Part shown: positions 22,988 through 52,754 of the stretch, piece after piece
Layout of the letters: each line of letters starts with the position of its first letter
How positions within the stretch are numbered: position 1 is the stretch's first letter
DNA from: Spirochaetales bacterium
GTDB lineage: Bacteria; Spirochaetota; Spirochaetia; JAFGDJ01
DNA length: 56,037 nt
Assembly: GCA_016932135.1 (NCBI GenBank)
Contig: JAFGDJ010000123.1
Span: forward strand, 1-56,037
Direction of reading: 5' to 3'
Translations under genes and position numbers: made by a program
Notes under the pieces: model-generated
What the model was told of the DNA's origin: nothing
The model's database searches: none
Seen by the model: the letters and a program-made list of their open reading frames with translations, nothing else

Positions 22988-23539
22988 ATGACACGCTTTT
23001 ATCTGATACGCCACGGCGAACCGGACTGGAACCTGACCCTGGAAAAAAACCTGCACCCCTGCAGGCATGATTTTGTTCCCCTGACAGCCCGGGGAATAAC
23101 TCAAGCGGAAGAAATCTGCTCACGTTACACTTTTCCGGAGGCCGACATCATTGTCGCATCACCCTATACCAGGGCACTGCAAACCGCGGCGATACTGGCT
23201 AAAAAGCTATCCCTGCCGTTATCGGTGGAATACGATTTGCATGAACGCCTGCCCGACACAACCTTTGCCGTGAACACCCGGGAAGAATTATTTCGTCTCT
23301 GCGGACAGTGGGAAGCCTCGGCCGGAACCCGGGATGAAACCTCCGGCCCCTGGGAATCCCTGGACCTGATTCGAAAAAGAATCCTCATCGTCTTTCGCCG
23401 ATATCTCAGCCACCGGGGGGTTATCGTGGTGTTCCATGAACTGGCCATGCGATCCCTCCTGGGGATCGATGAGCGAATTTCCTACTGCGAGGTGCGCATG
23501 CTCCCGGATGAGGATCTTTTTTCTCAGGAAAGGCTTTAA
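22988..23539 (+). CDS. Histidine phosphatase superfamily (phosphoglycerate-mutase-like)
   Basis: 183 residues. The catalytic start is RFYLIRHGEPDWN (RHG motif, His phosphorylated), SPYTRALQTAAILAKKL is the second family block, and VFHELAMRSLLG carries the second histidine, with E in place of the usual G. Members dephosphorylate sugar phosphates, nucleotides or cobalamin intermediates (CobC); no specific substrate can be given. The start at 22988 gives a protein that begins right before the motif, which agrees with a leaderless transcript. Its end overlaps the convergent permease gene by 4 nt. Confidence 0.85.
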   Translation: MTRFYLIRHGEPDWNLTLEKNLHPCRHDFVPLTARGITQAEEICSRYTFPEADIIVASPYTRALQTAAILAKKLSLPLSVEYDLHERLPDTTFAVNTREELFRLCGQWEASAGTRDETSGPWESLDLIRKRILIVFRRYLSHRGVIVVFHELAMRSLLGIDERISYCEVRMLPDEDLFSQERL

Positions 23540-24441
23540 ACCACGCTCTTCCTATGCTGCCAGATGGAAAAAAGTATCATCGCCGCCACGGTAATCAGAT
23601 ACGGAAAAGCCAGAATAAAGTCTGCCGGCACATTTATGGCCCCTTGCGCATAATTTGAAACGCTTTCCGCCAATCCGAAAACAAACGAGGCAATGAGAAT
23701 TCCCAAGGGCTTTTTGTTTCCCAGATAAATGGCTACCAGGGCTATCCATCCGCGGCCGGCGGAAATGTTCGGGACAAAGGCGCCCAGTTGCAGGGTAAGC
23801 AATGCGCCGGCCAGGCCGCAGGTGAATCCGGAAATCAGAATTCCCGCTATCTGGTATCTTTGAGGATTCAGCCCCAGGGCTCTGATGGCTTTTTGATCAA
23901 TCCCCGTACCCCTGAGCCGATAGCCGAAGGGAGTCCGGTAGATAACCACATAGGCCAGGAGAACGGCAACCCAGCTCAAATACACAAAAACACTATGGCC
24001 TAAAAAGATATCCCCTAGAAGGGGAACTCTCTGCAAGGCCGCAATGGTGAATTTCGGAAGCTTCGGCAGATCCTGGAAGAGGATGACCCCCTTGTTTCCG
24101 AAAAACTGAAACGCCAGAACCACGGTTAACCCTGAGGCCAGTAAATTGGTGGCCAGGCCGGATATAAAAACATTGGCCTTCAGATAGATGGAAATAGCTC
24201 CGAAAATCCAGGCTATTATCATCGTAACCGCGATGCCCAGCAGAACACCTAAAAATAGACTACCGGTAAAAGCGGCAAAGACCACACTGAAAAAAGCACC
24301 GATGAGGATGAGCCCCTCCAGGGCTATGTTCAGCATCCCGCCAAGCTCGGTAAAAAGTCCGCCCAAGGCAGCCAGCAGAAAGGGAGTCATGATGCCGATG
24401 GTGTTATGAAGCAGAGGAAAGGCAAACTGGGCGGAATTCAT
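23536..24441 (-). CDS. Nucleoside-type ABC importer permease (NupC/YufQ-like)
   Basis: 301 residues, about eight to ten membrane helices. LGGLFTELGGMLNIALEGLILIGAF is the branched-chain/BMP-type permease signature, with RGTGIDQKAIRALGLNPQRY as the cytoplasmic coupling loop. This family pairs with BMP lipoproteins to import nucleosides, purines or, in some cases, riboflavin. It is the last gene of the long minus-strand run and overlaps the preceding permease by 4 nt. Confidence 0.9.
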   Translation of the reverse strand: MNSAQFAFPLLHNTIGIMTPFLLAALGGLFTELGGMLNIALEGLILIGAFFSVVFAAFTGSLFLGVLLGIAVTMIIAWIFGAISIYLKANVFISGLATNLLASGLTVVLAFQFFGNKGVILFQDLPKLPKFTIAALQRVPLLGDIFLGHSVFVYLSWVAVLLAYVVIYRTPFGYRLRGTGIDQKAIRALGLNPQRYQIAGILISGFTCGLAGALLTLQLGAFVPNISAGRGWIALVAIYLGNKKPLGILIASFVFGLAESVSNYAQGAINVPADFILAFPYLITVAAMILFSIWQHRKSVV

Positions 24442-25490
24442 ACCTGGACCTCCTTTTTTCTGAACCGGATAAAATCGTGGATAGCCCGCGCCGTAACCAG
24501 AAAAAAGATTACCGATTGAACGATGGCGGCAATTTCAAAGGTGACGTCCGAATGAAGCATGGCGGCTTTCGCTCCGGCGTCTAAATAGGCGAAAAAGACC
24601 GCCGCCGGTATGATCGCCAGAGGATTGTTCTTGGCGATAAGAGCCACGGCAATGCCGTTCCACCCTATACCTCCGGAGAATCCTTTCAGGCATTGATGAT
24701 AGGTCCCCATAACCGCCACCGAGCCGGCGATACCGTGCAGACCACCGCTTAGAAGCATAGGCATGACCATGTAACGGGAAACGTTGATTCCTCCGTAACG
24801 GGAAAATTCCCTGTTCAGGCCGCACATCCGCATTTCATACCCCCACTTGGTATAAAAGAGGAAAAAATACACCCCCACCGCCGTCAGCACGGCAAACAGG
24901 ATGCTGATATCCAGGTTTGACGGAAGAAAGATCTTGAGGAACCAGAATCGTTCGTTCACCGGAGGCGTGGTCAGCAAATTTGTATTGGGGTCATTGAGGA
25001 TTCCGGTGATGAAATAATTGACGATCAACACCACGGCGCTGGAAAGGAGAAAGGAGGAAATAAGTTCGTCGGTGTTCCATTTCATGCGGAAAAACCCCGA
25101 CATGCCGGCTAAAAGGGCTCCCAGCAGGGCGGAAGAAATCAGGGCGACGAGAATTCCCAGAACCGCCGGTCCAGACTCGTTGATAATCAAAAGAAAGAAG
25201 GTGGCCACAAGGCCGCCGGCATACACCTGTCCCTCTCCACCGAGGTTGAACATGGACGATCTGAAAGCCAAGGCGATTCCCAGACCGGTAAAAATCAGGG
25301 GTATCGACGCGTTCAGCATATTCCCGAAATAGTACTTATTTGTAAAAGGTCCGAGGAAAAAGTAATACATGGTTTTTAACGGGGTTTCGCTCATCAGCAG
25401 GATCATAAGAATAACAATCAGGAAGGATATTCCGATGGTTATTCCAAGGCTGAGGGTATTAACAAAAAACTCGGTTCTGCGGTGTTTCAT
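24438..25490 (-). CDS. Nucleoside-type ABC importer permease (NupB/YufP-like)
   Basis: 350 residues with about ten membrane segments; ALAFRSSMFNLGGEGQVYAGGL is the typical motif of the first BMP-system permease, and MRMCGLNREFSRYGGINVSR the coupling loop. It overlaps the ATPase gene (ATGA) and the second permease, so the three are translationally coupled. It forms the membrane pore with the second permease for the BMP lipoprotein ligand. Confidence 0.9.
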   Translation of the reverse strand: MKHRRTEFFVNTLSLGITIGISFLIVILMILLMSETPLKTMYYFFLGPFTNKYYFGNMLNASIPLIFTGLGIALAFRSSMFNLGGEGQVYAGGLVATFFLLIINESGPAVLGILVALISSALLGALLAGMSGFFRMKWNTDELISSFLLSSAVVLIVNYFITGILNDPNTNLLTTPPVNERFWFLKIFLPSNLDISILFAVLTAVGVYFFLFYTKWGYEMRMCGLNREFSRYGGINVSRYMVMPMLLSGGLHGIAGSVAVMGTYHQCLKGFSGGIGWNGIAVALIAKNNPLAIIPAAVFFAYLDAGAKAAMLHSDVTFEIAAIVQSVIFFLVTARAIHDFIRFRKKEVQV

Positions 25491-27025
25491 GATGCGTCCG
25501 CCTTTTTCTTTGGAAAATCATCTTTCAAGCCCAGCATGTATTCCCCGATGGTTTCTTTCGAGACTCCCCGGTTTCGCAGATTCGCCACCATCTTTCCCCG
25601 ATAAAGAACGACGAGTCTGTCGGCCAGGCCGAGAATCTCATCCAGATTTGAGGAAATAAGCATCACCGCAGAGCCGGCATCTCGTATTTCAAGAATTTTC
25701 TTATAGATGAATTCCGACCCGGCCACGTCAAGACCCCAGGTTGGTTCTGAAAAAACAATAAAATCGGTCTTATTCGCCAGTTCCCTGGCCAAAATAACCT
25801 TCTGGATATTTCCCCCGGAAAGCATTCCCATGGGAATATCCGGGTTTCCGTCGATGGAAAACTGCTTCGCTAAATCTTCCGCGAAGACTTGAATCTTTTT
25901 TTGATCGAATACCCCGGCACGCAGGAATCTACGGGGGTTTGTCACGATCATGTTTTCACGGATCGTTGATTGAACACTGGAACCCCGGAAAAGACGATCC
26001 GCAGGCACATAGGCCAGGCCGTTTTCTCTCATGGCAATAGGACCGATATTGGTTATATCTTTTTGATCATGGTAAACAGCGCCGCTTTGGATATGCCTCA
26101 AACCGGTTATCACGTCTTCCAGTTCCCCTAATCCGTTTCCCCCGACTCCTGCCACACCGACGATCTCGCCGGCATGGAGCTCCAAAGACAGATGATCCAG
26201 CAGAGGCCGTTCCTGCCCTTTTTTCAGTAAGGTCACATCCCGCAGTTCAACGACAGTTTTTCCGGTATCCTGCTCCTTCTTCTCAAAATCGAAGAGCACA
26301 CTCTTTCCCACCATGAGGCGGGAAAGTTCCCGACAATCCACATCCCTGGTATACCGTACCGCCTCTACCCGGCCTTTTCTCATCACCGTAACCCGATGCG
26401 AAATTTGCATCACTTCATCGAGCTTGTGGGTGATCAAAACACAGGTCTTTCCGGCTTTCACCAGTCTCTGCAGATTCTCGAAAAGTTTCACGATTTCCTG
26501 CTCGGTAAGCACCGACGTAGGTTCATCGAGAATGAGAAGGTCCACATCCCGGTAGAGCATTTTAATGATTTCTACCTGCTGCATCTGTCCCACCGTTAAG
26601 GAAGACACCCGAGTCCTGGGATTTATATGGAAATTGTGTTCCTCGATAACCCGGCCGACCTCTTTCACGGCACTTTCGCGGTCGAAAAATACCCCTTTTG
26701 TCCTTGGTTCGATACCCAGCACGATGTTTTCAGCCACGGTAAAAGAGGGTATCAGGGTGAAGTGTTGATGGACCATGCCGATGCCCAGCTTGTTTGCCGC
26801 CAGGGGATTCGGAATAATGACTTCTTTCCCCCTCAGAAAAATGTTCCCATCATCGGGGGGTTCCAGACCATAAAGAACTTTCATGAGGGTCGTTTTGCCT
26901 GCACCGTTTTCACCGATGATAGCGTGAATTTCTCTCTCTTCCACGGAGAGAGACACGTCTTCGTTGGCGTGTAATCCGGTTTCACGATATATTTTCGTAA
27001 TTCCCCGCATGTCAAGATAACTCAC
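25487..27025 (-). CDS. Nucleoside-type ABC importer ATPase, duplicated NBDs (NupA/YufO-like)
   Basis: About 512 residues with two ATPase domains in tandem, as in sugar/nucleoside (RbsA-like) importers. First domain: Walker A GENGAGKTT, LTVGQMQQVEI in place of a full signature, LILDEPTSVLTEQE. Second domain: GVGGNGLGELEDVI in the Walker A position (degenerate), signature MLSGGNIQKV, FSEPTWGLD. I chose GTG 27025 (GGGAAGG just upstream), which gives the family's SYLDMRGITKIY opening; the ATG at 27010 is also possible and the upstream ATG 27127 overlaps the hairpin. It powers the permeases downstream. Confidence 0.9.
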   Translation of the reverse strand: MSYLDMRGITKIYRETGLHANEDVSLSVEEREIHAIIGENGAGKTTLMKVLYGLEPPDDGNIFLRGKEVIIPNPLAANKLGIGMVHQHFTLIPSFTVAENIVLGIEPRTKGVFFDRESAVKEVGRVIEEHNFHINPRTRVSSLTVGQMQQVEIIKMLYRDVDLLILDEPTSVLTEQEIVKLFENLQRLVKAGKTCVLITHKLDEVMQISHRVTVMRKGRVEAVRYTRDVDCRELSRLMVGKSVLFDFEKKEQDTGKTVVELRDVTLLKKGQERPLLDHLSLELHAGEIVGVAGVGGNGLGELEDVITGLRHIQSGAVYHDQKDITNIGPIAMRENGLAYVPADRLFRGSSVQSTIRENMIVTNPRRFLRAGVFDQKKIQVFAEDLAKQFSIDGNPDIPMGMLSGGNIQKVILARELANKTDFIVFSEPTWGLDVAGSEFIYKKILEIRDAGSAVMLISSNLDEILGLADRLVVLYRGKMVANLRNRGVSKETIGEYMLGLKDDFPKKKADAS

Positions 27026-27052
27026 CGCGACCTTCCCATTAAACAGAATATC

Positions 27053-27082
27053 CGAAAGAGGCAGGTTAACCTGCCTCTTTCG
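27053..27082 (-). other. 30-nt perfect palindrome between BMP and ATPase genes
   Basis: Two exact 15-nt arms (CGAAAGAGGCAGGTT and its complement) lie between the BMP stop (27096) and the ATPase start. No U-tract follows on the minus strand. As with the Dpp-type operon, this should protect or attenuate the transcript so that more binding protein than ATPase is made. Confidence 0.8.
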
Positions 27083-27095
27083 TGAATGATGTGAT

Positions 27096-28145
27096 TTATA
27101 ATTCCGGAACTTCCAGAATAAGTTCACCTTTCCGAATGCTGTCTACAACCTTTTTCTGGGCTGCCTGGATGTCCGCGGGAACATTATCGGTGTACAGAGG
27201 ATCGGAGTCGATAAAGTCCACATAACCGTCCCGGGCATGGTAAATGGTACCCTTGCCGTATTCCACATTGCCCAGAATGGCTTCTCGAATAACCTCGGAA
27301 ACCAGTTTTGTCTGTTCAAGCACACCGCATCCCAAAATTGTTCCGGGAGCCTGGTGATATTCATTGCTGTCCATGAAGTAGACGTATTTGCCCCTTTCCT
27401 TGGCGGCATTGATGACACCCTGGTTTGCTCCACCGCAGATGGTGATAATGCCGTCCACACCGATATCGAACATGGCGTTAGCCAGATCGGCGGCCTTATT
27501 GGCATCGTACCAGTTACCGATAACCCGGAAATCCACGGTGATACCGGGATCCACGGCCTTGGCTCCCTTTTCAAAGCCCGGACGCATCATTTTATCCAGG
27601 GCCGGATACTGCTGGGCCACGATCATGCCGAGTTTCAGATCGGGGTTCGCACCGGCCATCTTGCTCTTGGTAACCAGACCGGCCAGATAACCGAGAAAAT
27701 AGGACTGTTCCACCTGGTTGTACAGATGGGTGGAAAACTGAGGATGTCCATCCAGGTATGCGTCGAAGAAGATGAACTTCTGATCGGGGAAAGCCTTGGC
27801 CACATTCATGGAAACAAAGGGCATGGAGGGGTTGGATGAAATAATGACATCGTATTCCCCGCCGGCGGCTAAAGCGGTCATTTTTTCTTCCCACTCTGCC
27901 TGGTTGAATCCACCTTCCACCACTTTCAAGGTGGCGTTGTCGAATTCCGCTACGGCAATTTCAGCGCCTTCCACCAGCTGTTCGTACAACGGACTGCCGG
28001 CCACAACACCGGGAACAAAAGCCGCAATGTTAAAGGGTTCAGCCGCAGCCGTTTCACTTTCCTTTTCGCCGCCCGCGTATGCTCCGATAAGAACGACGGA
28101 CAACAACAGGACCATTACAAAGAGCTTTTTCATTCTCCTTTTCAT
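27096..28145 (-). CDS. BMP-family (PnrA/BmpA-like) substrate-binding protein
   Basis: 349 residues with an N-terminal signal peptide (KKLFVMVLLLSVVLIGAYAG); there is no lipobox cysteine, so it may be periplasmic. Family blocks: NIAAFVPGVVAGSPLYEQL, ISSNPSMPFVSMNVAKAFPDQKF, SYFLGYLAGLV and DGIITICGGANQGV. BMP proteins bind purine nucleosides (PnrA in Treponema) or related ligands. Start ATG 28145 behind AAAGGAG. It is followed by a palindrome and the Nup-type ATPase and permeases. In this operon full of purine- and ureide-type enzymes a nucleobase or nucleoside ligand is a sensible inference. Confidence 0.92.
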   Translation of the reverse strand: MKRRMKKLFVMVLLLSVVLIGAYAGGEKESETAAAEPFNIAAFVPGVVAGSPLYEQLVEGAEIAVAEFDNATLKVVEGGFNQAEWEEKMTALAAGGEYDVIISSNPSMPFVSMNVAKAFPDQKFIFFDAYLDGHPQFSTHLYNQVEQSYFLGYLAGLVTKSKMAGANPDLKLGMIVAQQYPALDKMMRPGFEKGAKAVDPGITVDFRVIGNWYDANKAADLANAMFDIGVDGIITICGGANQGVINAAKERGKYVYFMDSNEYHQAPGTILGCGVLEQTKLVSEVIREAILGNVEYGKGTIYHARDGYVDFIDSDPLYTDNVPADIQAAQKKVVDSIRKGELILEVPEL

Positions 28146-28209: not shown

Positions 28210-29391
28210 TTAAGGATAATACACCTGGGACAAAGCCCTTTCAGGACAAGAGGCAACGCAGAGACCACAGCCTATACAGCGGTCATTGTCCATCACCGCT
28301 TTTTTATTCACCACCTTCACCGCATCGTAGGCACAAACCCTTTCACAGATGCCGCAGCCGGTGCATGTGTCAAAAAATACTTCCGGTACAATTTTCTCCG
28401 TTACCGCCTGTCGATGAGCTTCTTCCCTCATCTTTATCCGCTGAAGCGTCTTTCCCCGCAGTTCCGAGGGTGAAAACACTCCCAACTCCTTAAGAAGTTG
28501 CTCTAGATCGTATAATATTTTGCTATATCTCTTGGGACCTTTCAAATGCCCGGCGGTACACACTCCCACCAGGGTCGCTCCTGCCATGAAATACTGCACC
28601 ATATCGGCGGCCGACTGAACGCCGCCTACCCCGATGATCGGCAGATCCGTTTCCATGGCGGCTTCCAGCACCATTCTCAAGGTAATAGGCATGATAGCCG
28701 GACCGGTGAGTCCTCCTACCCCTCGAGGACCTCCCAGGACGGGTTCACCGGAGTAAATGTCGATAGAAAGGGCCGGGCCTAAAGCGTCGGAACAGGCGAT
28801 ACCGTCGGCACCCGCTTCCTTCACACCCCGGGCCCAGGTTTTAACGATATGAAGAAAGGTTCCCGACAATTTCACCACCACGGGTATCTTCACTTTATTC
28901 TTTATCCGAGCCACCGATTGTTTCATCGGCTCCAGATCGGTGAGTTTCGGTTCCGCATTGGGCATGCCGGGAAACATGGCTGCCAGGATTTCCCCCATGT
29001 GAGGACAATGGGTCGGCAGCATAATCATGTCGGCGCCGGCTTTTTCCGCTTTTTCCGCCAGATCGCCCGCTTCTTCCGGGGTGAATCCCGCCAGGTTGGC
29101 GATCACCAGGGATTCCCCTTCCTTGGCTTCGGCTATTCCACGGTTAAACCAGTATTCAGCGGTTTTATCCGAACCGAAAACTGAATTGACCATACCGGCG
29201 GATACCGGGGAAAAACAAGGCAGCACGTCCGGCGCGCTCTGCGATACGATGGTCTTGGTACATATGGCCGCCGGACCATAGGTGGAAATCTCCCGGATCA
29301 CCTCACCGCTCCGGCCGTGAACCCCCGCCGGAACGATCATGGGGTTCTTGAATTCCAGGCCGCAGAAGGTCGTTTTCAGATCCACCGCCAT
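28210..29391 (-). CDS. PreA-like flavin/Fe-S oxidoreductase (dihydropyrimidine/dihydroorotate dehydrogenase family)
   Basis: 393 residues: FMN TIM barrel of the dihydroorotate/dihydropyrimidine dehydrogenase group (FCGLEFKNPMIVPAGV at the start, IGVGGVQSAADMVQYFMAGA for phosphate binding) and two 4Fe-4S clusters at the C-terminus (CTGCGICERVC and CIGCGLCVASCP). PreA with PreT reduces uracil or thymine with NADH; here no PreT is adjacent. The loop after THCPHMGE, where DPD carries its catalytic Cys, reads without an obvious Cys, so the substrate may differ from pyrimidines. The ATG at 29391 is 2 nt after the SsnA-type gene stop. Confidence 0.78.
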   Translation of the reverse strand: MAVDLKTTFCGLEFKNPMIVPAGVHGRSGEVIREISTYGPAAICTKTIVSQSAPDVLPCFSPVSAGMVNSVFGSDKTAEYWFNRGIAEAKEGESLVIANLAGFTPEEAGDLAEKAEKAGADMIMLPTHCPHMGEILAAMFPGMPNAEPKLTDLEPMKQSVARIKNKVKIPVVVKLSGTFLHIVKTWARGVKEAGADGIACSDALGPALSIDIYSGEPVLGGPRGVGGLTGPAIMPITLRMVLEAAMETDLPIIGVGGVQSAADMVQYFMAGATLVGVCTAGHLKGPKRYSKILYDLEQLLKELGVFSPSELRGKTLQRIKMREEAHRQAVTEKIVPEVFFDTCTGCGICERVCAYDAVKVVNKKAVMDNDRCIGCGLCVASCPERALSQVYYP

Positions 29392-29393
29392 GG

Positions 29394-33066: not shown

Positions 33067-33538
33067 GCCGGCCCTCCTCACTTTTCTCCGCCGCTCTCAT
33101 TACCGCCTGAACGATTTTTCCGTAGCCGGTGCACCGGCAGATATTGCCGCTCAAGGCTTCCTCAATGTCTTCCACCTGCGGGCGGGGGGTTTCATCCAGC
33201 AAGGCCTTGGCGCTCATGATCATCCCCGGAGTGCAGAAACCGCACTGCACCGCTCCTTCGTCAAGAAAGGCCTGCTGCAGAGGATGGAGTGATCCGTCGG
33301 GCTTCCGGAGCCCCTCGATGGTAAGAACCTCTGTGCCCTCCAGTTTAGCCGCAGGAAGGAGACAGGAAGACACGGGAAGACCGTCCACTAAAACGGTACA
33401 GGCTCCGCATTCTCCCTTTCCGCAGCCTTCCTTCACCCCGGTCAACCCCAGGGTATCCCGCAGGACATCCAGCGCCCGGGTTTCCGGGGATATTTCCAGC
33501 TGCATCGGCTTTCCGTTGCACCGAAAGGATATCTTCAT
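33056..33538 (-). CDS. Molybdenum hydroxylase, 2x[2Fe-2S] small subunit
   Basis: 160 residues. Plant-type ferredoxin cluster CGKGECGACTVLVDG with a fourth Cys in SSCLLPAA, then the helical domain with CGFCTPGMIM and CRCTGYGKIV. This subunit takes electrons from the Mo site to FAD. It overlaps the FAD subunit gene by 4 nt and the Mo subunit gene by 11 nt. Order here is FAD, Fe-S, Mo as in many CoxMSL-type operons. Confidence 0.95.
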   Translation of the reverse strand: MKISFRCNGKPMQLEISPETRALDVLRDTLGLTGVKEGCGKGECGACTVLVDGLPVSSCLLPAAKLEGTEVLTIEGLRKPDGSLHPLQQAFLDEGAVQCGFCTPGMIMSAKALLDETPRPQVEDIEEALSGNICRCTGYGKIVQAVMRAAEKSEEGRHDG

Positions 33539-36944: not shown

Positions 36945-36955
36945 GGGCATCCTCC

Positions 36956-41645: not shown

Positions 41646-41658
41646 CTTCGACCCCTTC

Positions 41659-45160: not shown

Positions 45161-46937
45161 CCGCTTCTCCTTTCAGCCGCTCCCGCAGCTTCGCTGTTTC
45201 CCTCTCATCCACTTCAAGGTAGTCGCCGGAAAGGACCACCCCGTAAACATCCCGGGCCGCCTTCAGGGAAATGATCTCGTTTCTGGCGTCGGTTCTGACC
45301 AATTCCGGATCTCTGTCCAGGGGGTTTCCCCATCCTCCCCCTCCCGAAGGATAGGAAGTGAAGGTCGTGCCGGTTTTCAGTTCCGCCGCTTCTTTTGAAG
45401 CGAGAAGCCGTTCACCCTCAAGACCTTCGTTGATATAGGCCATATTAGGTGTACCAGGTTTTCCTCCAAAAAGTCCATAGGGTGGAAAAACTCTACCGTC
45501 GCCGAACATCACCAGATTCGGCTGTTTATCGTGCAGGGAAATCCTGTACCTGGCGCCGCAGCCGCCGCGAAAGGCTCCATGGCCGCAGGAATCGGTGGTA
45601 AACTCGTTGAATTCGGTAATGTGGGGGTAGTCTGTTTCGTTGGTTTCGATATTCGGAGCGATAAGACCGCCCAAGTCGATGCCGTCGCCGATATAGTGCC
45701 GTCCGTCCATCCCCGACATACCGCCGGCGCCGCCGAAACCGTTGAAGCCGAACATCACGTAGAACTCTTGGCTCCGCGGATCGATGCCGGAGATGAGCGC
45801 GCCGTTCCAGCGGTTCCATCCGGCGGGGACCCGGTGGGGCAGCACATCGCTCAGGGCTATCCAGCAGGCTTCCAGGATTGCACAGGCGGTATCCAGGGTA
45901 CAGGAAGCCACGGGAGCGGGAAACTCGGGGTTCACCACCGACCCCACCGGTGCGGTAATGTGAATCGGCCGGTATACCCCCTGGTTATGGGGGATATCCG
46001 GTGTCGTCACGGTGGTCAGAAAAGCCACATAGACGCAGGTCTCGGTATTGGCGATGGGTGAATTGACGAACCCGGTGACCTGGTCCCCCGACCCGTCGAA
46101 ATCCACCCAGGCTTCGTCCCCCTGGATGGTTATCTTGACCTTGATGCGGATGGGGTCGTCGGAAAACCCGTCGGAATCCAGGTGGGATTCCCCTTCATAC
46201 ACCCCGTCGGGCAGTTTTGCGATTTCCATCCGCATCCGGCGTTCGGCGTATTCATGGATATCCTCGATGGTTTCCCGGGTCTTCTTGACACCGTATTTTT
46301 CCAGGAGCTCGATAATCCTCTTTTCCGACACCCGACAGGAAGCCACCATGGCCTTGATATCCACCCAGAGAGCATCGGGCATCCGGGTGTTCATACGGAT
46401 CATGTCCACCACGTCCATGATGGGTTTATTGTCCCGGTACAGCCTCACCGGAGGAATCCGGATTCCCTCATGAAACAGCTCCGTGGCCTTGGGGGAATAG
46501 GACCCCGCTTCGATGCCCCCCACGTCGCCGTGGTGGGCCCGGTTGATGGCGATAAACTGCAGCTGCCCTTCATAGAACACCGGTTTGATGATGGTGATGT
46601 CGGGCAGGTGGGTTCCCCCGGTATAGGGGTCGTTGAGGATAAACACGTCCCCGTCATGGATGTCCCCGGCAAAATAGCCGGTAACGGCCTTGACCGACTC
46701 CATGGCTGAAGCCGTATGGGAAGGCACACCGTCTATCTGGGCGACGATCCTGTTATCCCAGTCGCAGATGGCGCAGGAGAAGTCGTGGACCTCGGCAAAG
46801 ATGGGGGAGATGGACGTGTTGATCATCGTGATGCCCATCTCCTGGTTGATGGTCAGAAGCCGGTTATAAATAACCGCCATGGTGATGGGATCTTTGGCGC
46901 CCTCGAATTCCTTCTTTCTTTTTTCTTCGACGCTCAT
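45153..46937 (-). CDS. hyuB: ATP-dependent hydantoinase B subunit (HyuB / N-methylhydantoinase B family)
   Basis: About 594 residues with the HyuB opening DPITMAVIYNRLLTINQEMG, INTSISPIFAEVHDFSCAI and FILNDPYTGGTHLPD. Together with HyuA it hydrolyses 5-membered cyclic imides or amides such as hydantoin or N-methylhydantoin (some members 5-oxoproline or acetophenone carboxylation) with ATP. The ATG at 46937 overlaps the HyuA stop (ATGA) and lies behind GGAGG. Its stop is covered by the opine dehydrogenase start. Confidence 0.9.
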   Translation of the reverse strand: MSVEEKRKKEFEGAKDPITMAVIYNRLLTINQEMGITMINTSISPIFAEVHDFSCAICDWDNRIVAQIDGVPSHTASAMESVKAVTGYFAGDIHDGDVFILNDPYTGGTHLPDITIIKPVFYEGQLQFIAINRAHHGDVGGIEAGSYSPKATELFHEGIRIPPVRLYRDNKPIMDVVDMIRMNTRMPDALWVDIKAMVASCRVSEKRIIELLEKYGVKKTRETIEDIHEYAERRMRMEIAKLPDGVYEGESHLDSDGFSDDPIRIKVKITIQGDEAWVDFDGSGDQVTGFVNSPIANTETCVYVAFLTTVTTPDIPHNQGVYRPIHITAPVGSVVNPEFPAPVASCTLDTACAILEACWIALSDVLPHRVPAGWNRWNGALISGIDPRSQEFYVMFGFNGFGGAGGMSGMDGRHYIGDGIDLGGLIAPNIETNETDYPHITEFNEFTTDSCGHGAFRGGCGARYRISLHDKQPNLVMFGDGRVFPPYGLFGGKPGTPNMAYINEGLEGERLLASKEAAELKTGTTFTSYPSGGGGWGNPLDRDPELVRTDARNEIISLKAARDVYGVVLSGDYLEVDERETAKLRERLKGEADG

Positions 46938-49003
46938 TGGGCAGCCTCCATGATGATATTCCCGTAGGTGTCCACCTGCATATTCCACCGGGGATGCACG
47001 ATAACCGTGGTGATTCTTTCTTCGATCACAGCGGGACCTTTCGTCTTCATTCCGGGCAGCAGTTTACTCCGATCGTACACCGGGACCGATAGAAAGCCGC
47101 CCTCCTCTTCGAAGAATACTTCCCGCTCTCCTTTCTTTGCTTCCTCCAGTCTTGAAACACCGGTTATTCCCTCTTCGATCATCGCCTTGTCCACCGACCC
47201 GACGGCGGTGACCCGGAGCCCCATAATTTCCACGGGGTTTTCCGGTGTAGCGTAGGTATAGAGCTTTTCATGGGCCCCATGGAAAGCATCAGCCATGCCG
47301 GATAGGTGTTTTTCTTCGATCTCACAGCCATGGGGGATATCCACCGTCACTTCGTGGTGCTGCCCTAGGTAGCGCATATCCAGGTGCCGCAGCAAGGTAG
47401 CCCTCTCTTTTTCCACCCCTTCTTGTAGAAGTTCCTTCAATGCCCGTTCTTCCACCTCCCGGATCACCCGGTTGAAATCATCCAGGTCGATGCCTGGAAT
47501 GGTGGCATGATAGGTCTTGACGTGATCCAGCTTGATGTCCGATTCCAGCATCCCCAGGGCGCAGAATACCGAGGCCGCCCGGGGGACGATCACCGTGGTC
47601 GATCCGATCTCTTCGGCGATCTTACACGCGTGAATGGAGCAAGCCCCGCCGGCGCTGACCAGGCAGTACTCCCGGGGGTCGTGCCCCCGCTGAACCGAGA
47701 CAACCTTGGCGGCGTCCGCCATGTTTTGATTGATGATCTTAAACACCCCGGCGGCGGCGTCGGTGACCGAAAGCCCTAAAGGTCGGGCAATCTTCTCTTC
47801 GGTGACAGCCTTCGCCTTAGCCTTGTTTACCTTCATTTCACCGCCGAGGAAATAATCTTCGTTCAGGTATCCCAGGAGGAGATTGGCATCGGTTACCGTG
47901 GTAGCTTCTCCGCCCAGGTCGTAGCAGACGGGCCCCGGATCCGACCCCGCCGAGGCGGGACCGACTTTCAGCATACCGCCTTTGTCGATCCAGGCAATGG
48001 ATCCGCCGCCGGCGCCGATGGTATTGATATCGATCATGGGTTTGGCCACCCGGTAGCCGGCAATCTCTCCTTCGGTGCTCAAGGTGAGAGATCCGTTGTT
48101 GATCAGGCTTACGTCGAAGGAGGTTCCCCCCATATCCATGAGGATAAGATTCTTTCGTCCCAGAAGCTCCGCGAAGAATACCGCCCCCACCGCGCCGGCG
48201 GCGGGACCGGAAAGAAGTGTAGCCGAGGCATGGCGGATGGCCGTGTCGGCGGTCATTACCCCTCCGTTGGAAGCGGTAACGTAGAAGGCCCTGGAAAGGC
48301 CGTCATCTTTCAGCTTTTCCTCCAGATTCTGCAGGTATACCGTCAGCTTGGGTCCCACGTAGGCGTTGGCCACGGTGGTGGAGGATCGTTCGTACTCCCG
48401 AATCTGGGGAAGCACTTCCGATGAAATGGAAATAAAGGTGCCGGGAAGTTCTTCTTCAAGAATCTGCCGTATTCTTTTCTCATGATCATCCCTCAGATAG
48501 GAAAACAGGGTGCATACCGCCAGGGCCTTCACATCGTTTTTTCTTAAAATTTCACAGGCTTTGCGCACCGAAGCTTCATCTAAGGGGGTTACCACCTCAC
48601 CCTTATAGTCGACCCGTTCTTTCACTCCCAGACGCAGGTACCGGGGAACCAGGGGTGGGGGAACCGGTAAAAAAAGGTCCCAGATGTTTTCTTTATGCGC
48701 CCGGCGCATTTCCAGGGTGTCCCGGAACCCCTCCGTAACGATTATACCGGTAACGGCTCCGGTTCCGGTAAGCAGCGTGTTGGTGGCGACGGTGGTGCCG
48801 TGAGCGAAAAAATCCATTTCCGCTAAGAAATCCTTCAAAGATTGTCCGAAACTTTCCGCCGCTTTCCTTATAACGTTGTACAACCCGACGGACGGGTCCT
48901 TGGGTGTGGATAGTTCCTTGAAGGTATGTATCTTACCTTGTTCATCGATAACGACACAGTCGGTAAAGGTACCCCCCGTATCGACGCCGACCCTGAATTT
49001 CAT
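46934..49003 (-). CDS. hyuA: ATP-dependent hydantoinase A subunit (HyuA / N-methylhydantoinase A family)
   Basis: 689 residues. ATP site FRVGVDTGGTFTDCVVIDE, FFAHGTTVATNTLLTGTGA, ILMDMGGTSFDVSLI and HDPREYCLVSAGGACSIHACKIAEE are the hallmarks of the hydantoinase/oxoprolinase A family. It phosphorylates or activates the cyclic imide which HyuB then opens. It is preceded by the GntR gene (47-nt gap, GGAGGTAA before ATG). N-methylhydantoinases are ATP-consuming, unlike the separate zinc-type HydA encoded at 51348-52754, so two different ring-opening systems lie side by side. Confidence 0.92.
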   Translation of the reverse strand: MKFRVGVDTGGTFTDCVVIDEQGKIHTFKELSTPKDPSVGLYNVIRKAAESFGQSLKDFLAEMDFFAHGTTVATNTLLTGTGAVTGIIVTEGFRDTLEMRRAHKENIWDLFLPVPPPLVPRYLRLGVKERVDYKGEVVTPLDEASVRKACEILRKNDVKALAVCTLFSYLRDDHEKRIRQILEEELPGTFISISSEVLPQIREYERSSTTVANAYVGPKLTVYLQNLEEKLKDDGLSRAFYVTASNGGVMTADTAIRHASATLLSGPAAGAVGAVFFAELLGRKNLILMDMGGTSFDVSLINNGSLTLSTEGEIAGYRVAKPMIDINTIGAGGGSIAWIDKGGMLKVGPASAGSDPGPVCYDLGGEATTVTDANLLLGYLNEDYFLGGEMKVNKAKAKAVTEEKIARPLGLSVTDAAAGVFKIINQNMADAAKVVSVQRGHDPREYCLVSAGGACSIHACKIAEEIGSTTVIVPRAASVFCALGMLESDIKLDHVKTYHATIPGIDLDDFNRVIREVEERALKELLQEGVEKERATLLRHLDMRYLGQHHEVTVDIPHGCEIEEKHLSGMADAFHGAHEKLYTYATPENPVEIMGLRVTAVGSVDKAMIEEGITGVSRLEEAKKGEREVFFEEEGGFLSVPVYDRSKLLPGMKTKGPAVIEERITTVIVHPRWNMQVDTYGNIIMEAAQ

Positions 49004-49050: not shown

Positions 49051-49785
49051 TCAGCCTTCAAACACATCCACTTCCAGGGCATGAATATGTTTGAACATAC
49101 GATTTCTCGCCGCGCTGCTTTTGCCATCTCTGATGGCGGTGTATATCTGATAATGTTCCTTCTCGTAATTCTTCAAACTGCTGAGTTCCAGAACTCCTCT
49201 TCTCTTTACCGTCTTCCAAAGGTCTTCCTTCATCATGTTGTTCACTGCGTAGAAGACCATATGCAAGATGCTGTTATGGGCGCATTTGCCCACGAGAAGA
49301 TGGAATTTTCTGTCCTCTTCCATATACTCCTCCGACCGGTTTACACCCCTTTTCATAGCTTCATAAATACCCGAAAGAACTTCCAGCTGTTTTTTCAGTT
49401 CCTCTTTCTCTTCTTTCGTCGCTCTCTCCGCCGCCAGGGAGGCTATACAGGGTTCTATTTCCAATCGCGCCTCGTATATTTCGAAGGGGCTGTGTTCCTG
49501 CAGCAGGTTCGTCATGACCTCACTGTCGATGGTATCGCCGGCTATTCCTTCCCGGATAAAATTTCCCTGACCGCTGCGACTCTCCACGATTCCAAGAATC
49601 TCCAGGGCGCTTAAGGCTTCCCGTATACTGGCTCTGCTGGTACCGAAGAGATTTGAAAGCTCCCGTTCCGGAGGCAATTGATCCCCCGACTTCAATGTGC
49701 CGTCGGTGATCTGTTTACGCACCTGGTCAATAATCTGCAAATAATACTTCTTGTTCTGCACCTGTTCGAATTCGATTTTTCTCAT
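49051..49785 (-). CDS. FadR-subfamily GntR transcription regulator
   Basis: About 244 residues: winged-helix domain with YLQIIDQVRKQITDGTLKSGDQLPPERELSNLFGTSRASIREALSALEILGIVESRSGQGNFI, here shortened to the key features of residues 10-75, then an all-helical FCD ligand domain (residues 95-235). FCD regulators bind small carboxylic acids and release DNA. Start ATG 49785 behind GGAG. The site GTGGTCTGACCGC lies in its leader and a second one upstream of the divergent aminotransferase, so it is probably the repressor of the whole island and of itself. Confidence 0.93.
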   Translation of the reverse strand: MRKIEFEQVQNKKYYLQIIDQVRKQITDGTLKSGDQLPPERELSNLFGTSRASIREALSALEILGIVESRSGQGNFIREGIAGDTIDSEVMTNLLQEHSPFEIYEARLEIEPCIASLAAERATKEEKEELKKQLEVLSGIYEAMKRGVNRSEEYMEEDRKFHLLVGKCAHNSILHMVFYAVNNMMKEDLWKTVKRRGVLELSSLKNYEKEHYQIYTAIRDGKSSAARNRMFKHIHALEVDVFEG

Positions 49786-49806
49786 GGGTTTTTCTCCGCC
49801 GGTATA

Positions 49807-49819
49807 GTGGTCTGACCGC
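49807..49819. promoter_or_regulatory. GntR operator, leader of regulator operon
   Basis: GTGGTC-T-GACCGC, one base from a perfect palindrome. The TGGTCTGACC core fits FadR-type TGGTnnnACCA operators. It starts about 4 nt after the predicted transcription start of the GntR/hyuA operon and would block RNA polymerase. Confidence 0.8.
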
Positions 49820-49829
49820 AACATACCTC

Positions 49830-49858
49830 ATCATAGCCGTGCTTCCTCAATTTGTCAA
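49830..49858 (-). promoter_or_regulatory. Promoter of GntR-hyuA-...-nup operon
   Basis: On the minus strand TTGACA (49858-49853), 17-nt spacer and TATGAT (49835-49830). Start of transcription expected near 49823. No other clear promoter was seen further down in the 26-kb run. Confidence 0.75.
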
Positions 49859-49883
49859 ATAATTTCTCACCTGCGTTTTTTTC

Positions 49884-49912
49884 TTGACAGGTCAGTCTTC
49901 TCACCCTATGCT
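49884..49912 (+). promoter_or_regulatory. Promoter of the class III aminotransferase gene
   Basis: TTGACA (49884-49889), 17-nt spacer, TATGCT (49907-49912); start expected near 49919, four bases before the palindromic operator. Confidence 0.75.
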
Positions 49913-49922
49913 TAGCTGTAAG

Positions 49923-49935
49923 GTGGTCTGACCAC
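49923..49935. promoter_or_regulatory. GntR operator, leader of aminotransferase gene
   Basis: Perfect palindrome GTGGTC-T-GACCAC, same core as the site at 49807-49819 and placed at the same distance behind the -10 box of its promoter. Confidence 0.82.
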
Positions 49936-49962
49936 AAAAACAATCTTTTGTTGGAGGCTTTT

Positions 49963-51291
49963 ATGAGTTATTCAGGCCCTCGCATAGTGACGGCTCCCCC
50001 GGGACCAAAGGCACAGAAGTATATTGAAATGGACCACGACAGGCTTTCACCTTCTCTTACCAGAACAAGCCCTCTGGTAGCCCTTCGGGCCGAGGGAGTA
50101 TACGTGGAAGACGTGGATGGAAATGTTTTTTTGGATTTTGGTTCCGGTATAGCCGTCACAGCCCTGGGTCACCGGCATCCCGACGTTATCGCCGCTATTA
50201 AAAAACAGCTGGATGAACTCATTTTCGTCAACAGCCTGGATTATTACACCCTCCCGCAGATTGAATATGCCGATATGCTTTTCAAACACATTCCCGGAAA
50301 TTTCAAGAAGAAAATTTTTTACTGCAATTCGGGAAGCGAGGCTGTGGATACGGCCATCAAGCTGGCCAAGGCTCATACTCGACGCTGTTACGGCATCGGA
50401 TACATAAACGGTTTTCACGGCCGAACCATCGGCGCCATCAGCATGACCACCACCAATGTGGCCGGCCGCCGGGGCTTTGGCCCCATGTACCCCATCGCGC
50501 AGTTTGTCCCCTACCCGTACTGCTACCGATGCATGTTCGGCCGGGAATACCCCTCCTGCGGTCTCTACTGCATGAACTACCTGACGGACATCATGTTCAA
50601 AAAGATCGTTCCGCCGGATGAAACCGCTTATATCATCATCGAACCTGTTCAGGGAGCCGGGGGATATATCGTTCCTCCGGTGGAGTTCATGCAAAAACTC
50701 GCCGAGATTACCGCGGAAAAAGGGATTCTGCTCATCGCTGATGAAGTACAATCGGGGTTCGGCAGAACGGGAAAGATGTTCGCGTCATCCCATTTCGGTA
50801 TCGAACCGGATATAATTACCTGCAGCAAGGCCTTCGCCCACGGGCTGCCCGCGGGAGCCGCCGTATCCAAGGCTGAAATTATGGATTGGGAACCCGGTGC
50901 CCACGAAGGCACCTTGAACGGCGGACCGGTGATCCTCGAAGCGGCGAAAATGGTCCTCACCGTCATGGAAAGGGATAAGATCGTTCAGCGGGCCGAAGAA
51001 ACGGGAAAGTACTTCCGGTCCTGTCTTCTGGACATGCAGTCCCGGAACCCCTGTATAGGAGACGTCCGGGGTCTGGGCCTTATGATCGGGGTGGAGTTCA
51101 TTAAAGACACAAAAAAGACTCCCGCCAAGGATCTGCGGGATCGTCTCATCGACGACGCCTTCAATAAGGGGCTCCTGCTCCTGGCCGCCGGTGAATCGTC
51201 CATCCGCCTGGCTCCGCCTTTGATCATCACCCGGGAGCAGTTGGACACCGGCCTTTCCATTATCGAAGACTGCCTGAAACAGTACCGGTAA
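49963..51291 (+). CDS. Class III PLP aminotransferase (4-aminobutyrate/ornithine type)
   Basis: About 442 residues. Typical blocks: DGNVFLDFGSGIAVTALGHRHP, FYCNSGSEAVDTAIKLAKAH, LLIADEVQSGFGRTGKMF (PLP aspartate) and TCSKAFAHGLPAGAAVS (PLP lysine). A cysteine-rich stretch PYCYRCMFGREYPSCGLYC in the middle is found in several archaeal and clostridial members of the class. It transfers an amino group from an omega- or beta-amino acid (4-aminobutyrate, beta-alanine, ornithine) to a keto acid; with HydA next to it, transamination of beta-alanine or a related ureide product is possible. Start ATG 49963 behind TTGGAGG; an upstream in-frame TTG at 49948 is unlikely. Confidence 0.88.
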   Translation: MSYSGPRIVTAPPGPKAQKYIEMDHDRLSPSLTRTSPLVALRAEGVYVEDVDGNVFLDFGSGIAVTALGHRHPDVIAAIKKQLDELIFVNSLDYYTLPQIEYADMLFKHIPGNFKKKIFYCNSGSEAVDTAIKLAKAHTRRCYGIGYINGFHGRTIGAISMTTTNVAGRRGFGPMYPIAQFVPYPYCYRCMFGREYPSCGLYCMNYLTDIMFKKIVPPDETAYIIIEPVQGAGGYIVPPVEFMQKLAEITAEKGILLIADEVQSGFGRTGKMFASSHFGIEPDIITCSKAFAHGLPAGAAVSKAEIMDWEPGAHEGTLNGGPVILEAAKMVLTVMERDKIVQRAEETGKYFRSCLLDMQSRNPCIGDVRGLGLMIGVEFIKDTKKTPAKDLRDRLIDDAFNKGLLLLAAGESSIRLAPPLIITREQLDTGLSIIEDCLKQYR

Positions 51292-51321: not shown

Positions 51322-51347
51322 CTATCGACTTTCGAAAAAAGGTTATC

Positions 51348-52754
51348 TTACACTACCATTCCCTGGTGCCGATGCATGTATTTTCCCGCGCCCTTTTCCT
51401 GTTTCCATTCACCGTTTACCACGATGCTCTTGCCCCGCAGGATGGTTCTAACCGGCCAGCCGGTGACCTTCATGCCTTCGTAGGCATTGTAATCCACGTT
51501 CATGTGGTGGGTCTTGGCACTGATGGTATGTTCCTTTTTGGGGTCCCACAGGACGATATCCGCGTCGCTGCCGATGGCAACGGTTCCTTTTTCAGGGTAC
51601 ATACCCAGAGCCTTGGCGGCATTGGTGGAGGTGATGGCCACGAATCTGTTGAGGCTGATCCTTCCCAGGTTGACACCGTTGTGGTACATCACCGGAACCC
51701 GGTCTTCGATACCGGGTATCCCGTTGGGGATCATGTGGAACCCTTCTTTTCCCAGTTCCTTCCCCGGTTTCTTTCCGTCCTTTCCCCCTTCATAGTTGAA
51801 AGAGCAGTGATCGGTGGCGACAAATTGCAGAGTGGTGTCGGCCAGGGATTTCCAGAGATAGGCGGCGTCCTTGGGTTTTCTCACCGGCGGGCCGCAGGCC
51901 CACTTGGCCCCTTCGTAGCCGTCCACCTTCATGTCGTCCTCGAACTTGAACATGTACTGGGTGCAGGTCTCACCCATTACCGGCAGTCCGATGCTCCGGC
52001 CGTAGGCCATTTCCATGACCGATTCTTCGCAGCTCATATGAACCACATACAGCTTGCTGCCGGCAACCCCCGCCAGAGCGATGGCCCGGGCGGTGGCTTC
52101 CCGTTCGATCAGGGCGGGATGAGCTTCCAGATGATACCTGGGGTGAAGTTTGCCTTCCGCCACCAGAGCCTTGGTGACCTCATCGGTGACGTCCCCGTTT
52201 TCACAATGGATCATCACCAGCAAGCCGCTCTTCTTCGCCGCTTTCATGGCCCGAAAAAGGGTGGTATCGTCCACCTGGAACAACCCTTTGTACTGCTGAA
52301 ACACTTTGATGCTGGAAACCCCGGATTCCATGATGGTACCGATCTCTTTAACCATGGCATCGCCGGGGTCGGTGACCGCTACATGGAAGCCGTAATCTAT
52401 AACAGCGTTTCCGTTGGCCTTCTCATGCCAGGTGTTTACCGCGTCCTTCAGGGAACTGCCCTTAGTCTGCAGGGCAAAATCCACATGGCAGGTGGTTCCG
52501 CCGAAGGCGGCGGCTCTCTGACCGGTGAAGAAATCATCCGCCGTGGTGGTGCCGCCGAAAGGCATGTCCAGATGGGTGTGTGGATCGATACCGCCGGGCA
52601 TCACATACAGCCCCGTGGCGTCGATCACCTCGTCACAGCCCGCTTCCGGAAGATCACGGCCGATCATGGCGATTTTTTCGTCCACGATAAGCACATCCGC
52701 CGGATAGGTGTCCGAAGCGGTGACCACAGTGCCGTTCTTTATAATTGTTTTCAT
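51348..52754 (-). CDS. hydA: Dihydropyrimidinase / D-hydantoinase
   Basis: About 468 residues of the cyclic amidohydrolase family. Metal ligands H59 and H61 (PHTHLDMPFGG), carbamylated Lys 150 in SSIKVFQQYKG, further ligands in MIHCENGD and VVHMSCEES, and Asp in VATDHCSFNYEGG. Two zinc ions hydrolyse 5- and 6-membered cyclic ureides (hydantoin, dihydrouracil) reversibly to N-carbamoyl amino acids. Start ATG 52754 behind GGAGG. It has its own promoter and a leader hairpin, and ends at a strong terminator. N-carbamoyl products would be the substrate for the YgeW-like carbamoyltransferase. Confidence 0.93.
   Translation of the reverse strand: MKTIIKNGTVVTASDTYPADVLIVDEKIAMIGRDLPEAGCDEVIDATGLYVMPGGIDPHTHLDMPFGGTTTADDFFTGQRAAAFGGTTCHVDFALQTKGSSLKDAVNTWHEKANGNAVIDYGFHVAVTDPGDAMVKEIGTIMESGVSSIKVFQQYKGLFQVDDTTLFRAMKAAKKSGLLVMIHCENGDVTDEVTKALVAEGKLHPRYHLEAHPALIEREATARAIALAGVAGSKLYVVHMSCEESVMEMAYGRSIGLPVMGETCTQYMFKFEDDMKVDGYEGAKWACGPPVRKPKDAAYLWKSLADTTLQFVATDHCSFNYEGGKDGKKPGKELGKEGFHMIPNGIPGIEDRVPVMYHNGVNLGRISLNRFVAITSTNAAKALGMYPEKGTVAIGSDADIVLWDPKKEHTISAKTHHMNVDYNAYEGMKVTGWPVRTILRGKSIVVNGEWKQEKGAGKYMHRHQGMVV

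Follow-up and report, generated by a model that had tools for sequence, protein, structure and literature searches.

A conserved two-module gene island of Spirochaetia that may serve anaerobic flavin catabolism

The window, i.e., the whole stretch of DNA analyzed here, is the 56,037-nucleotide contig C136 of the Spirochaetia assembly G000 (3.26 Mb, 82% complete). Its minus strand carries an operon of 22 genes (23536–49824) with intergenic gaps of −82 to +64 bp, calculated on the starts of the longest open reading frames (ORFs); after the ends of GrdA and GrdB are refined, the gaps remain <64 bp. From position 49824 down, the operon encodes a GntR regulator, HyuA, HyuB, an opine/octopine-dehydrogenase-like protein (ODH), a carbamoyltransferase, GrdB, GrdE, GrdA, a thioredoxin, and a GrdC-GrdD fusion, and then a ferredoxin, an aldehyde:ferredoxin oxidoreductase (AOR), a MoaD-like ORF, XdhB, XdhC, XdhA, relatives of SsnA and PreA, and an ABC importer (Table 1). 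Below the importer lie genes for a MerR regulator, an alcohol dehydrogenase (ADH), an FGGY kinase, a DhnA aldolase, and an MFS transporter (17925–22886), followed on the opposite strand by SelB, SelA, and tRNA-Sec. An earlier note, made from the sequence alone, had described a colinear minus-strand run, taken as one operon, that unites enzymes acting on N-heterocycles with hydantoinases, a carbamoyltransferase, and a selenoprotein reductase of the Grd type. The run is real, and profile matches identify all of these enzyme kinds, HyuAB belonging to a hydantoinase family that is ATP-dependent. The full GrdA/B/E/C/D set with its thioredoxin is there too, with in-frame UGA codons in GrdA and GrdB and with GrdC and GrdD fused. 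The note had extended the run to position 52754; the operon from 23536 to 49824 stands, but the D-hydantoinase lies past a divergent aminotransferase and is left out of the island. ODH, AOR, the MoaD-like ORF, the ferredoxin, and the downstream MerR/ADH/FGGY/DhnA/MFS genes are additions to the note's list. Within the literature set searched, we found no report that joins a hydantoinase, a carbamoyltransferase, and a glycine reductase and, judged by title and abstract start, none on an ODH/hydantoinase/carbamoyltransferase island.

Table 1. Features of the window, with positions counted from its first letter
Feature	Position	Strand	Basis or remark
tRNA-Sec, SelA, SelB	14714–17977	+	counterpart in G280, L025:316–3642
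MFS transporter	17925–19067	−	also in G280
DhnA/LacD-type class I aldolase	19112–19906	−	71% identity in G280, 37–38% in g24 genomes
FGGY carbohydrate kinase	19903–21354	−	
Zn alcohol dehydrogenase (ADH)	21354–22379	−	also L015, L025/L151; distantly L152, L165
MerR regulator	22404–22886	−	
ABC importer permease 2 (BPD_transp_2)	23536–24441	−	Pfam 130.3 bits; order conserved
ABC importer permease 1	24438–25490	−	Pfam 111.4 bits
ABC importer ATPase with two ABC domains	25487–27127	−	Pfam
Bmp-family substrate-binding protein, nearest TpN38(b)	27096–28145	−	269.1 bits to 4iil
PreA/UacX-type DHO_dh flavoprotein, C-terminal ferredoxin domain	28210–29445	−	Pfam; proposed ring reductase
SsnA-related amidohydrolase	29394–30788	−	TIGR03314 244.8 bits, cut-off 455.5
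XdhA-type Mo hydroxylase large subunit	30766–33081	−	Pfam, NCBIfam
XdhC-type 2Fe-2S subunit	33056–33538	−	Pfam, NCBIfam
XdhB-type FAD subunit	33535–34401	−	Pfam, NCBIfam
MoaD-like small ORF, C-terminal GG	34408–34716	−	similar ORFs in other islands, by eye
Aldehyde:ferredoxin oxidoreductase family (AOR)	34723–36534	−	AFOR_N + AFOR_C
Multi-cluster ferredoxin	36519–37037	−	conserved in relatives
GrdC-GrdD fusion, 844 aa	36956–39490	−	622.3 bits (cut-off 450), 361.9 (cut-off 350)
Thioredoxin	39480–39803	−	profile match
GrdA selenoprotein, UGA codon 42	39832–40290	−	post-Sec part 156.7 bits (cut-off 130); read-through frame
GrdE-like component B alpha, SGNY for SGNC	40335–41666	−	start more likely MKLERGY, 41645
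GrdB-like component B beta selenoprotein	41665–42996	−	UGA codon 356 in TST-U-GTCTRC; 471.1 bits (cut-off 65.45)
OTC-family carbamoyltransferase with knot-type insertion WGYRSANPPAGLTNS	42998–44002	−	OTC model 259.7 bits (cut-off 280.85)
Opine/octopine-dehydrogenase-like protein (ODH)	44024–45160	−	Octopine_DH; full-length similarity to CENDH (1bg6, E 3.5e-37)
HyuB, ATP-dependent hydantoinase/oxoprolinase/caprolactamase family	45153–46988	−	Hydantoinase_B domain
HyuA, ATP-dependent hydantoinase/oxoprolinase/caprolactamase family	46934–49003	−	Hydantoinase_A domain
GntR/FCD regulator	49051–49824	−	Pfam
Two operator-like palindromes, core GGTCTGACC at 49809 and 49925	49808–49934	.	GntR/aminotransferase divergent promoter
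Class III aminotransferase, divergent from GntR	49948–51291	+	same place in G043, G109
D-hydantoinase	51348–52781		beyond divergent aminotransferase

The island is conserved rather than a chance assembly. A survey of 394 Spirochaetia genomes turned up ODH orthologs in 11, whose best matches score at least 610 bits against 212 for the next; one of these genomes (G057) holds an additional partial copy (353.5 bits). HyuB adjoins an ODH copy in all 11, the carbamoyltransferase comes next after ODH in 10 (in G213 the contig ends there), and XdhA and the SsnA and PreA relatives are present in all 11, in some on separate contigs. Orthologs of this carbamoyltransferase are found in 10 of the 394 genomes, and island-type PreA in the 11 ODH genomes plus, as partial copies, two without an ODH ortholog (G219 and G087). 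Hypergeometric p values for co-occurrence, unweighted and with kinship ignored, are 1e-19 for ODH with PreA, 5e-19 for ODH with the carbamoyltransferase, and 6e-10 for ODH with GrdB. The gene order, whose conservation the earlier note had proposed to search for, recurs in several Spirochaetia genomes and is thus not unique to one. The 11 island genomes span eight families, which suggests horizontal transfer. When named genomes were scanned with GrdE, its close relatives came from six loci, all in Spirochaetes (G035, G043, G057, G109, G225, and G280); the rest of the survey covered Spirochaetia, and among plasmids no carbamoyltransferase relative reached 60% identity. Most of the island genomes are incomplete, and genes past contig ends were not scored as absent. 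Genome G225 has HyuA, HyuB, PreA, thioredoxin reductase, and transketolase split between frames (L022, L056, and L057), partly near masked or undetermined bases, and these splits are possibly assembly errors.

Grd is an optional part of the island. Grd genes follow the carbamoyltransferase in six genomes (G000, G035, G043, G057, G109, and G225), those of G109 sitting beside a fragment at a contig end, whereas ferredoxin and AOR follow it without Grd in three (G104, after a transketolase; G171; and G009). These counts cover nine of the 11 islands; the other two are those of G201 and G213. GrdB of any kind is present in 16 of the 394 genomes and in none of G104, G171, G009, G201, and G213 (completeness 81–96%). 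Conversely, the island of G280 is Grd-only: its gene set reads GntR-GrdB-E-TrxB-A-Trx-CD-ABC-ADH-FGGY-DhnA-MFS-Fd-AOR, the 36 kb examined (L025, L151) contain no ring-module gene, and the genome has no island-type ODH, PreA, or carbamoyltransferase, its best HyuA match scoring 88.4 bits. The single obligatory linear pathway proposed earlier does not fit this distribution. Among the islands whose flank beyond the importer is visible, those with Grd (the window, G043, and G280) have the ADH-FGGY-DhnA genes there, and the Grd-less ones (G104 and G171) do not. Since these genes track Grd in the visible flanks, they appear to belong with the Grd module. The tRNA-Sec/SelA/SelB genes of the window are close to its Grd genes, as are those of G280, which are just upstream. 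Some islands have further genes of their own: a DapA-family aldolase precedes HyuA in G225, G009, and G201, and a transketolase follows the carbamoyltransferase in G225 and G104 (loci L022:1–900, L064:1048–1974, and L060:8894–10918).

The Grd hallmarks are all found: a GrdA selenocysteine (Sec), a GrdB Sec with CxxC, and GrdC/D. Both UGA codons lie in the expected Sec contexts, and from these in-frame codons together with tRNA-Sec, SelA, and SelB we infer selenocysteine in GrdA and GrdB. The 56 nt after each UGA fold weakly (z −0.85 and −1.43), and among the window and 16 loci scanned, the Rfam SECIS_4 model matched only the GrdB genes of the genome group g24, which we take to be probably Treponema. 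Component B scores below the cut-off of every named NCBIfam model (GrdF 470.8/800, glycine 434.9/602.2, GrdH 414.2/775); these cut-offs are strict, as L129 passes the glycine model (638.9/602.2) yet misses 800, and L127, nearest betaine, falls 5 bits short of 775. A more telling character lies in GrdE. The annotated GrdG of P. acidaminophilum reads SGNC, with a Cys at index 242 that is presumably the pyruvoyl precursor of GrdE/GrdG. Island GrdE reads SGNY in all seven genomes with island-type Grd, and both g24 copies do so as well. Copies nearest GrdG retain SGNC, and betaine-like copies read SGSF, also without the Cys (the pattern was unmatched in L001, L128, L142, L148, and L176). With the precursor Cys replaced by Tyr, the island enzyme is not expected to form a Schiff base with glycine or sarcosine. 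In a GrdB tree, the seven island rows group together (100/99), and the two g24 rows are their sister (100/98); the island rows stand apart from sarcosine-type rows, with betaine-type (GrdH) rows on the other side; the G231 GrdB is a long branch of unsure placement. For this tree, L128 was re-extracted by pattern, the G109 sequence came from L150, and L130, L132, L141, and L147 were omitted as near-copies or pieces. Glycine or sarcosine, the substrates proposed by the earlier note, are therefore probably not those of the island enzyme. The G231 locus (L148) has a different context: its GrdB-like selenoprotein diverges strongly (414 bits) and is accompanied by GrdA, GrdC, thioredoxin, and a weakly matching GrdE.

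The carbamoyltransferase had been called a knotted, YgeW-type enzyme. A Pro-rich insertion does occupy the site of the YgeW knot loop in nine aligned island copies, but the YgeW identity does not hold, with scores far below the cut-offs (TIGR03316 86.1/500, PRK07200 91.9/453). The insertion is seen in the sequence only, the AlphaFold model being poor (pLDDT 53.4). All nine aligned copies lack the ornithine-binding aspartate of the DxxSMG motif of ornithine carbamoyltransferase (OTC) and read YSWVSP in its place. Yet another kind of carbamoyltransferase (L122:1930–2910, L115), neither YgeW nor island type, combines a knot-type loop, KSWGP, and an OTC-like C-terminus. SsnA and PreA fared similarly: relatives are present, but both score below the named-model cut-offs (PreA 155.3/335; SsnA in Table 1). 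A true YgeW (628 bits) is encoded elsewhere in the window's own genome, on contig C205 (L116), with XdhC, XdhB, an 8-oxoguanine deaminase (577.1 bits, cut-off 532), an M20 amidohydrolase, and a 488-aa protein that has no NCBIfam match and resembles a PLP lyase by eye. Indeed, true YgeW exceeds its cut-off in 7 of the 11 island genomes and true SsnA in 4, so the island is a second system, parallel to the YgeW set. The D-hydantoinase was excluded on similar grounds: its relative in G043 (71% identity) sits beside another XdhABC set with SsnA- and PreA-type genes (the SsnA relative scoring 364.5/444), with a YgeW over cut-off ~20 kb away on the same contig. Carbamate kinase exceeds its cut-off in 10 of 12 genomes (G104 has only pieces below it), and in G225 its gene (366.9 bits, cut-off 358.25) divergently adjoins the island. 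The two phosphate-bond-forming steps proposed earlier still look plausible from the gene content.

The importer was first thought to be of nucleoside type, which its binding protein does not support. That protein has TpN38(b) (4iil) as its best solved match, with the next chain at 68.4 bits; a Bmp protein taken from a urate-type cluster as a control reaches 53.8 bits against TpN38(b), which we take to be the same protein as RfuA. The binding proteins of six islands (full, ring-only, and Grd-only) are 50–75% identical. RfuA binds riboflavin, according to the part of the spirochaetal study used here (PMC4418817).

Flavins also connect the Grd module to other genomes. In two g24 genomes (G185 and G197), genes for an aldehyde dehydrogenase (ALDH), XRE, GrdB, GrdE, a class I aldolase, an ADH, a permease, and RibF lie side by side. 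A Grd pair, a class I aldolase, and an ADH are thus common to the window, G043, G280, and these g24 genomes. Of the six g24 genomes, three (G185, G197, and G155) have a second, full RibF, and three (G023, G044, and G373) do not. G155 (L173) retains an intact RibF, next to which the aldolase and ADH survive as fused remnants; this is a decayed relative of the g24 flavin cluster and gives the impression that its parts disappeared jointly. In the portion of the fin report consulted (PMC12934955), C. scindens turns riboflavin into lumichrome without oxygen, inducing finA-K, and the fin neighborhood encodes RibF, a class I aldolase, an ADH, an ALDH, and two Grd homologs, matching the g24 clusters in its parts. 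F. fissicatena, without Grd homologs, yields hydroxyethylflavin and so retains a two-carbon stub (same portion, PMC12934955). That portion gives no mechanism for the Grd homologs, and neither "carboxymethyl" nor "acetyl phosphate" occurs in the main text of the report (PMC12934955).

We lean toward reading the island as a system of anaerobic flavin catabolism, with two separable modules behind one riboflavin-type ABC importer. Speaking for it are the TpN38(b)-like binding protein; the g24 clusters, with their sister GrdB; the products of C. scindens and F. fissicatena; the Tyr shared by the island and g24 copies; the Grd-only island of G280; the company that ADH-FGGY-DhnA keeps with Grd; and the second RibF in G185, G197, and G155. 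In the side-chain module, ADH (as a polyol dehydrogenase) and the FGGY kinase would convert the ribityl chain to a 4'-keto 5'-phosphate, which the class I aldolase would cut between C2' and C3' by a retro-aldol reaction into dihydroxyacetone phosphate and formylmethylflavin. AOR (ALDH in relatives) would oxidize formylmethylflavin to 10-carboxymethylflavin; reduction instead would give hydroxyethylflavin, as in F. fissicatena. Formally, 10-carboxymethylflavin is an N,N-disubstituted glycine, and its nitrogen, like that of betaine, forms no Schiff base. The GrdA/B/E selenoenzyme would split its N10-CH2 bond, releasing lumichrome and, via GrdC/D, acetyl phosphate, and the MFS transporter would export lumichrome. 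This substrate would explain the Tyr, the aldolase, the ADH, the aldehyde oxidizer, the importer, and the two products in two bacteria. The ring half is weaker and more speculative than the side-chain half. The enzyme kinds of the ring module resemble those of the reductive uric acid pathway, as described in the parts of the primary paper and commentary used here (PMC12507026; PMC12990295), and by this analogy the module is assigned to lumichrome and its uracil-like ring. That ring would be attacked by XdhABC together with the flavoprotein of PreA type and the hydrolase of SsnA type, HyuAB would spend ATP to open the lactam or ureide bond that is left, the carbamoyltransferase would phosphorolyze the ureido group to carbamoyl phosphate, and the ODH-like enzyme would process the resulting cyclic amino acid. 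That one operon dismantles flavin completely, by import, aldolase cleavage of the ribityl chain, pyruvoyl-free Grd N10-dealkylation, lumichrome ring opening, and recovery of carbamoyl phosphate, is a tentative proposal that we would sooner doubt than rely on.

Several points weigh against flavin catabolism. All of its substrates and reactions are ones that we infer; what was observed directly is which genes are present and in what order, their recurrence and modular distribution, the Tyr in place of the pyruvoyl Cys, and the GrdB clade. The link from the island and g24 genes to the fin genes of C. scindens is one of gene types rather than of alignment, and the aldolase and ADH are only 34–38% identical to the g24 copies. 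RibF has no match in the window's own genome, and the FGGY kinase is assumed to stand in for it; RibF copy number is not specific and proves nothing alone, since G043, although not a g24 genome, likewise gives two matches (221.8 and 91 bits), which lie on other contigs, with no fin-type cluster as far as examined. An FMN riboswitch is reported for one spirochaete rfu operon, but none was found at the gathering threshold in the window or the 16 loci. Where their flanks can be seen, ring-only islands lack side-chain genes, and because they have the same importer, it may transport a related ring instead of riboflavin. G225 has Grd but no AOR between GrdCD and XdhB, and the assembly of the window, which is 82% complete, yielded no carbamate kinase. 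Flavin catabolism also leaves unexplained how the ring is broken down and what ODH, XdhABC, DapA, and transketolase do.

Of the other explanations, the one we take most seriously, while thinking it rather doubtful, is that two independent pathways share a regulator and an importer, with Grd acting on flavin side chains and the ring module on a pterin, lumazine, or modified purine. Each module is indeed found without the other, and one binding-protein family serves six islands of all three kinds. Against this, six genomes have both modules, four of them (G000, G035, G043, and G225) in one unbroken stretch, and island-type GrdB coincides with ODH in six of seven genomes (unweighted hypergeometric). 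A ureide or creatinine-type fermentation, close to what the earlier note envisaged, would open a ring to N-carbamoyl-glycine or -sarcosine, phosphorolyze it, and reduce the glycine or sarcosine. The HyuAB family includes N-methylhydantoinases, and sarcosine gives component B its highest score among the named models, yet the Tyr of GrdE and the separation of the GrdB clade from the sarcosine type argue the other way, the g24 genomes G185 and G197 have no match to such a HyuA and the Grd-only G280 only the weak one given above, and XdhABC and PreA would be left idle. Clostridium FS41 does break down N-methylhydantoin via sarcosine, with a fused subunit C, but its N-methylhydantoinase is ATP-independent and its N-carbamoylsarcosine step hydrolytic (PMC4417704). 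We regard such a fermentation as unlikely.

Slightly less probable still is a variant of the reductive uric acid pathway (XdhD-YgfK/UacX-SsnA-HyuA-YgeW). The enzyme kinds match, with a Mo hydroxylase, a DHO_dh reductase, an SsnA relative, a hydantoinase, and a carbamoyltransferase, as far as the consulted part of the paper goes (PMC12507026). The SsnA and YgeW models nevertheless score far under cut-off, many island genomes hold separate true YgeW and SsnA genes, contig C205 pairs YgeW with 8-oxoguanine deaminase, XdhBC, and M20 genes, and a Pfam scan of the 20 ORFs at 23536–55021 found no PALP- or M20-family gene (the YgeX and YgeY kinds). A uricolytic reading was rejected on finding the YgeW set elsewhere in the same genome. 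Least probable, and in our view very improbable, is catabolism of glycation products or N-(carboxymethyl) amino acids, cleaved oxidatively by ODH and reductively by Grd. ODH is near the opine dehydrogenase CENDH and the carbamoyltransferase is related to OTC; such compounds, however, are secondary amines and so fit Schiff-base chemistry at a pyruvoyl group, and the Cys from which that group would arise is missing; moreover, the importer, aldolase, kinase, and RibF links would go unexplained. A related idea, Amadori compounds or fructosyl-glycine, was dropped after nothing relevant was found in the literature set searched.

If one operon does dismantle flavin completely, vitamin B2 would feed two substrate-level phosphorylations. 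If flavin catabolism is the right reading, flavins, which are common electron shuttles, would be an anaerobic source of carbon and energy. The Grd homologs of the fin neighborhood would gain a chemically sensible substrate in 10-carboxymethylflavin, the end of the Faecalicatena pathway at hydroxyethylflavin in the absence of Grd homologs would be explained, and the glycine reductase family would extend to aromatic N-dealkylation. The reading predicts intermediates and products, among them acetyl phosphate, lumichrome, and dihydroxyacetone phosphate.

Some smaller features of the locus remain to be described. The MoaD-like ORF, for which an NCBIfam scan gave no match, probably serves the AOR pterin, and inspection by eye shows comparable ORFs, likewise with a terminal GG, at the corresponding place in L015, L016, L064, and L062; the multi-cluster ferredoxin is the probable partner of AOR. 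In the divergent promoter of GntR and the aminotransferase, which is a possible member of the GntR regulon, lie the only two exact GGTCWGACC sites of the window (0.52 expected; at least two in 4 of 100 shuffles). The 11-base pattern TGGTCNGACCA, with two mismatches allowed, is not above chance (20 found versus a mean of 24.94). Comparable palindromes were seen by eye 5' of GntR in six other genomes, i.e., in all seven inspected, including the window. Beyond the D-hydantoinase, a gene at 52919–55021 (−) encodes a 700-aa protein without a Pfam or NCBIfam match; its homolog in G043 (34%; L120:2025–3953) also adjoins a D-hydantoinase, and the two may be functionally linked. Near the contig end (55225–56031, −) lies an apparently incomplete gene of the LarA (lactate racemase) family.

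Compared with known systems, the island combines familiar parts in an arrangement of its own. It shares GrdA, GrdC/D, a selenoprotein B with UxxCxxC, and thioredoxin with the glycine, sarcosine, and betaine reductases but forms its own clade, linked to an aldolase and an ADH, and differs from the glycine and sarcosine reductases in having Tyr at the pyruvoyl Cys position. The carbamoyltransferase has in common with YgeW and other knotted enzymes the Pro-rich insertion, the SW motif, and the absence of the DxxSMG aspartate; unlike theirs, its C-terminal half is OTC-like (HCMPxSRNxEVTDE), and YgeW models fail. The binding protein is of the same type as that of the spirochaetal RfuABCD, whereas the island copy sits in a catabolic operon in which no FMN riboswitch was found (comparison with the part of PMC4418817 used). 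As far as the consulted part of PMC12507026 describes the reductive uric acid pathway of E. coli and C. difficile, the ring module has the same enzyme kinds, including a PF01180 reductase like UacX, but has HyuAB for HyuA, an OTC-type enzyme for YgeW, and ODH/AOR/Grd in place of YgeY/YgeX. The fin genes of C. scindens, to the extent given in the portion consulted of PMC12934955, likewise place a Grd homolog pair beside a class I aldolase, an ADH, and an aldehyde-oxidizing enzyme; the island has FGGY for RibF and AOR for ALDH, and adds its own GrdA, GrdCD, RfuA-type ABC importer, and ring module.

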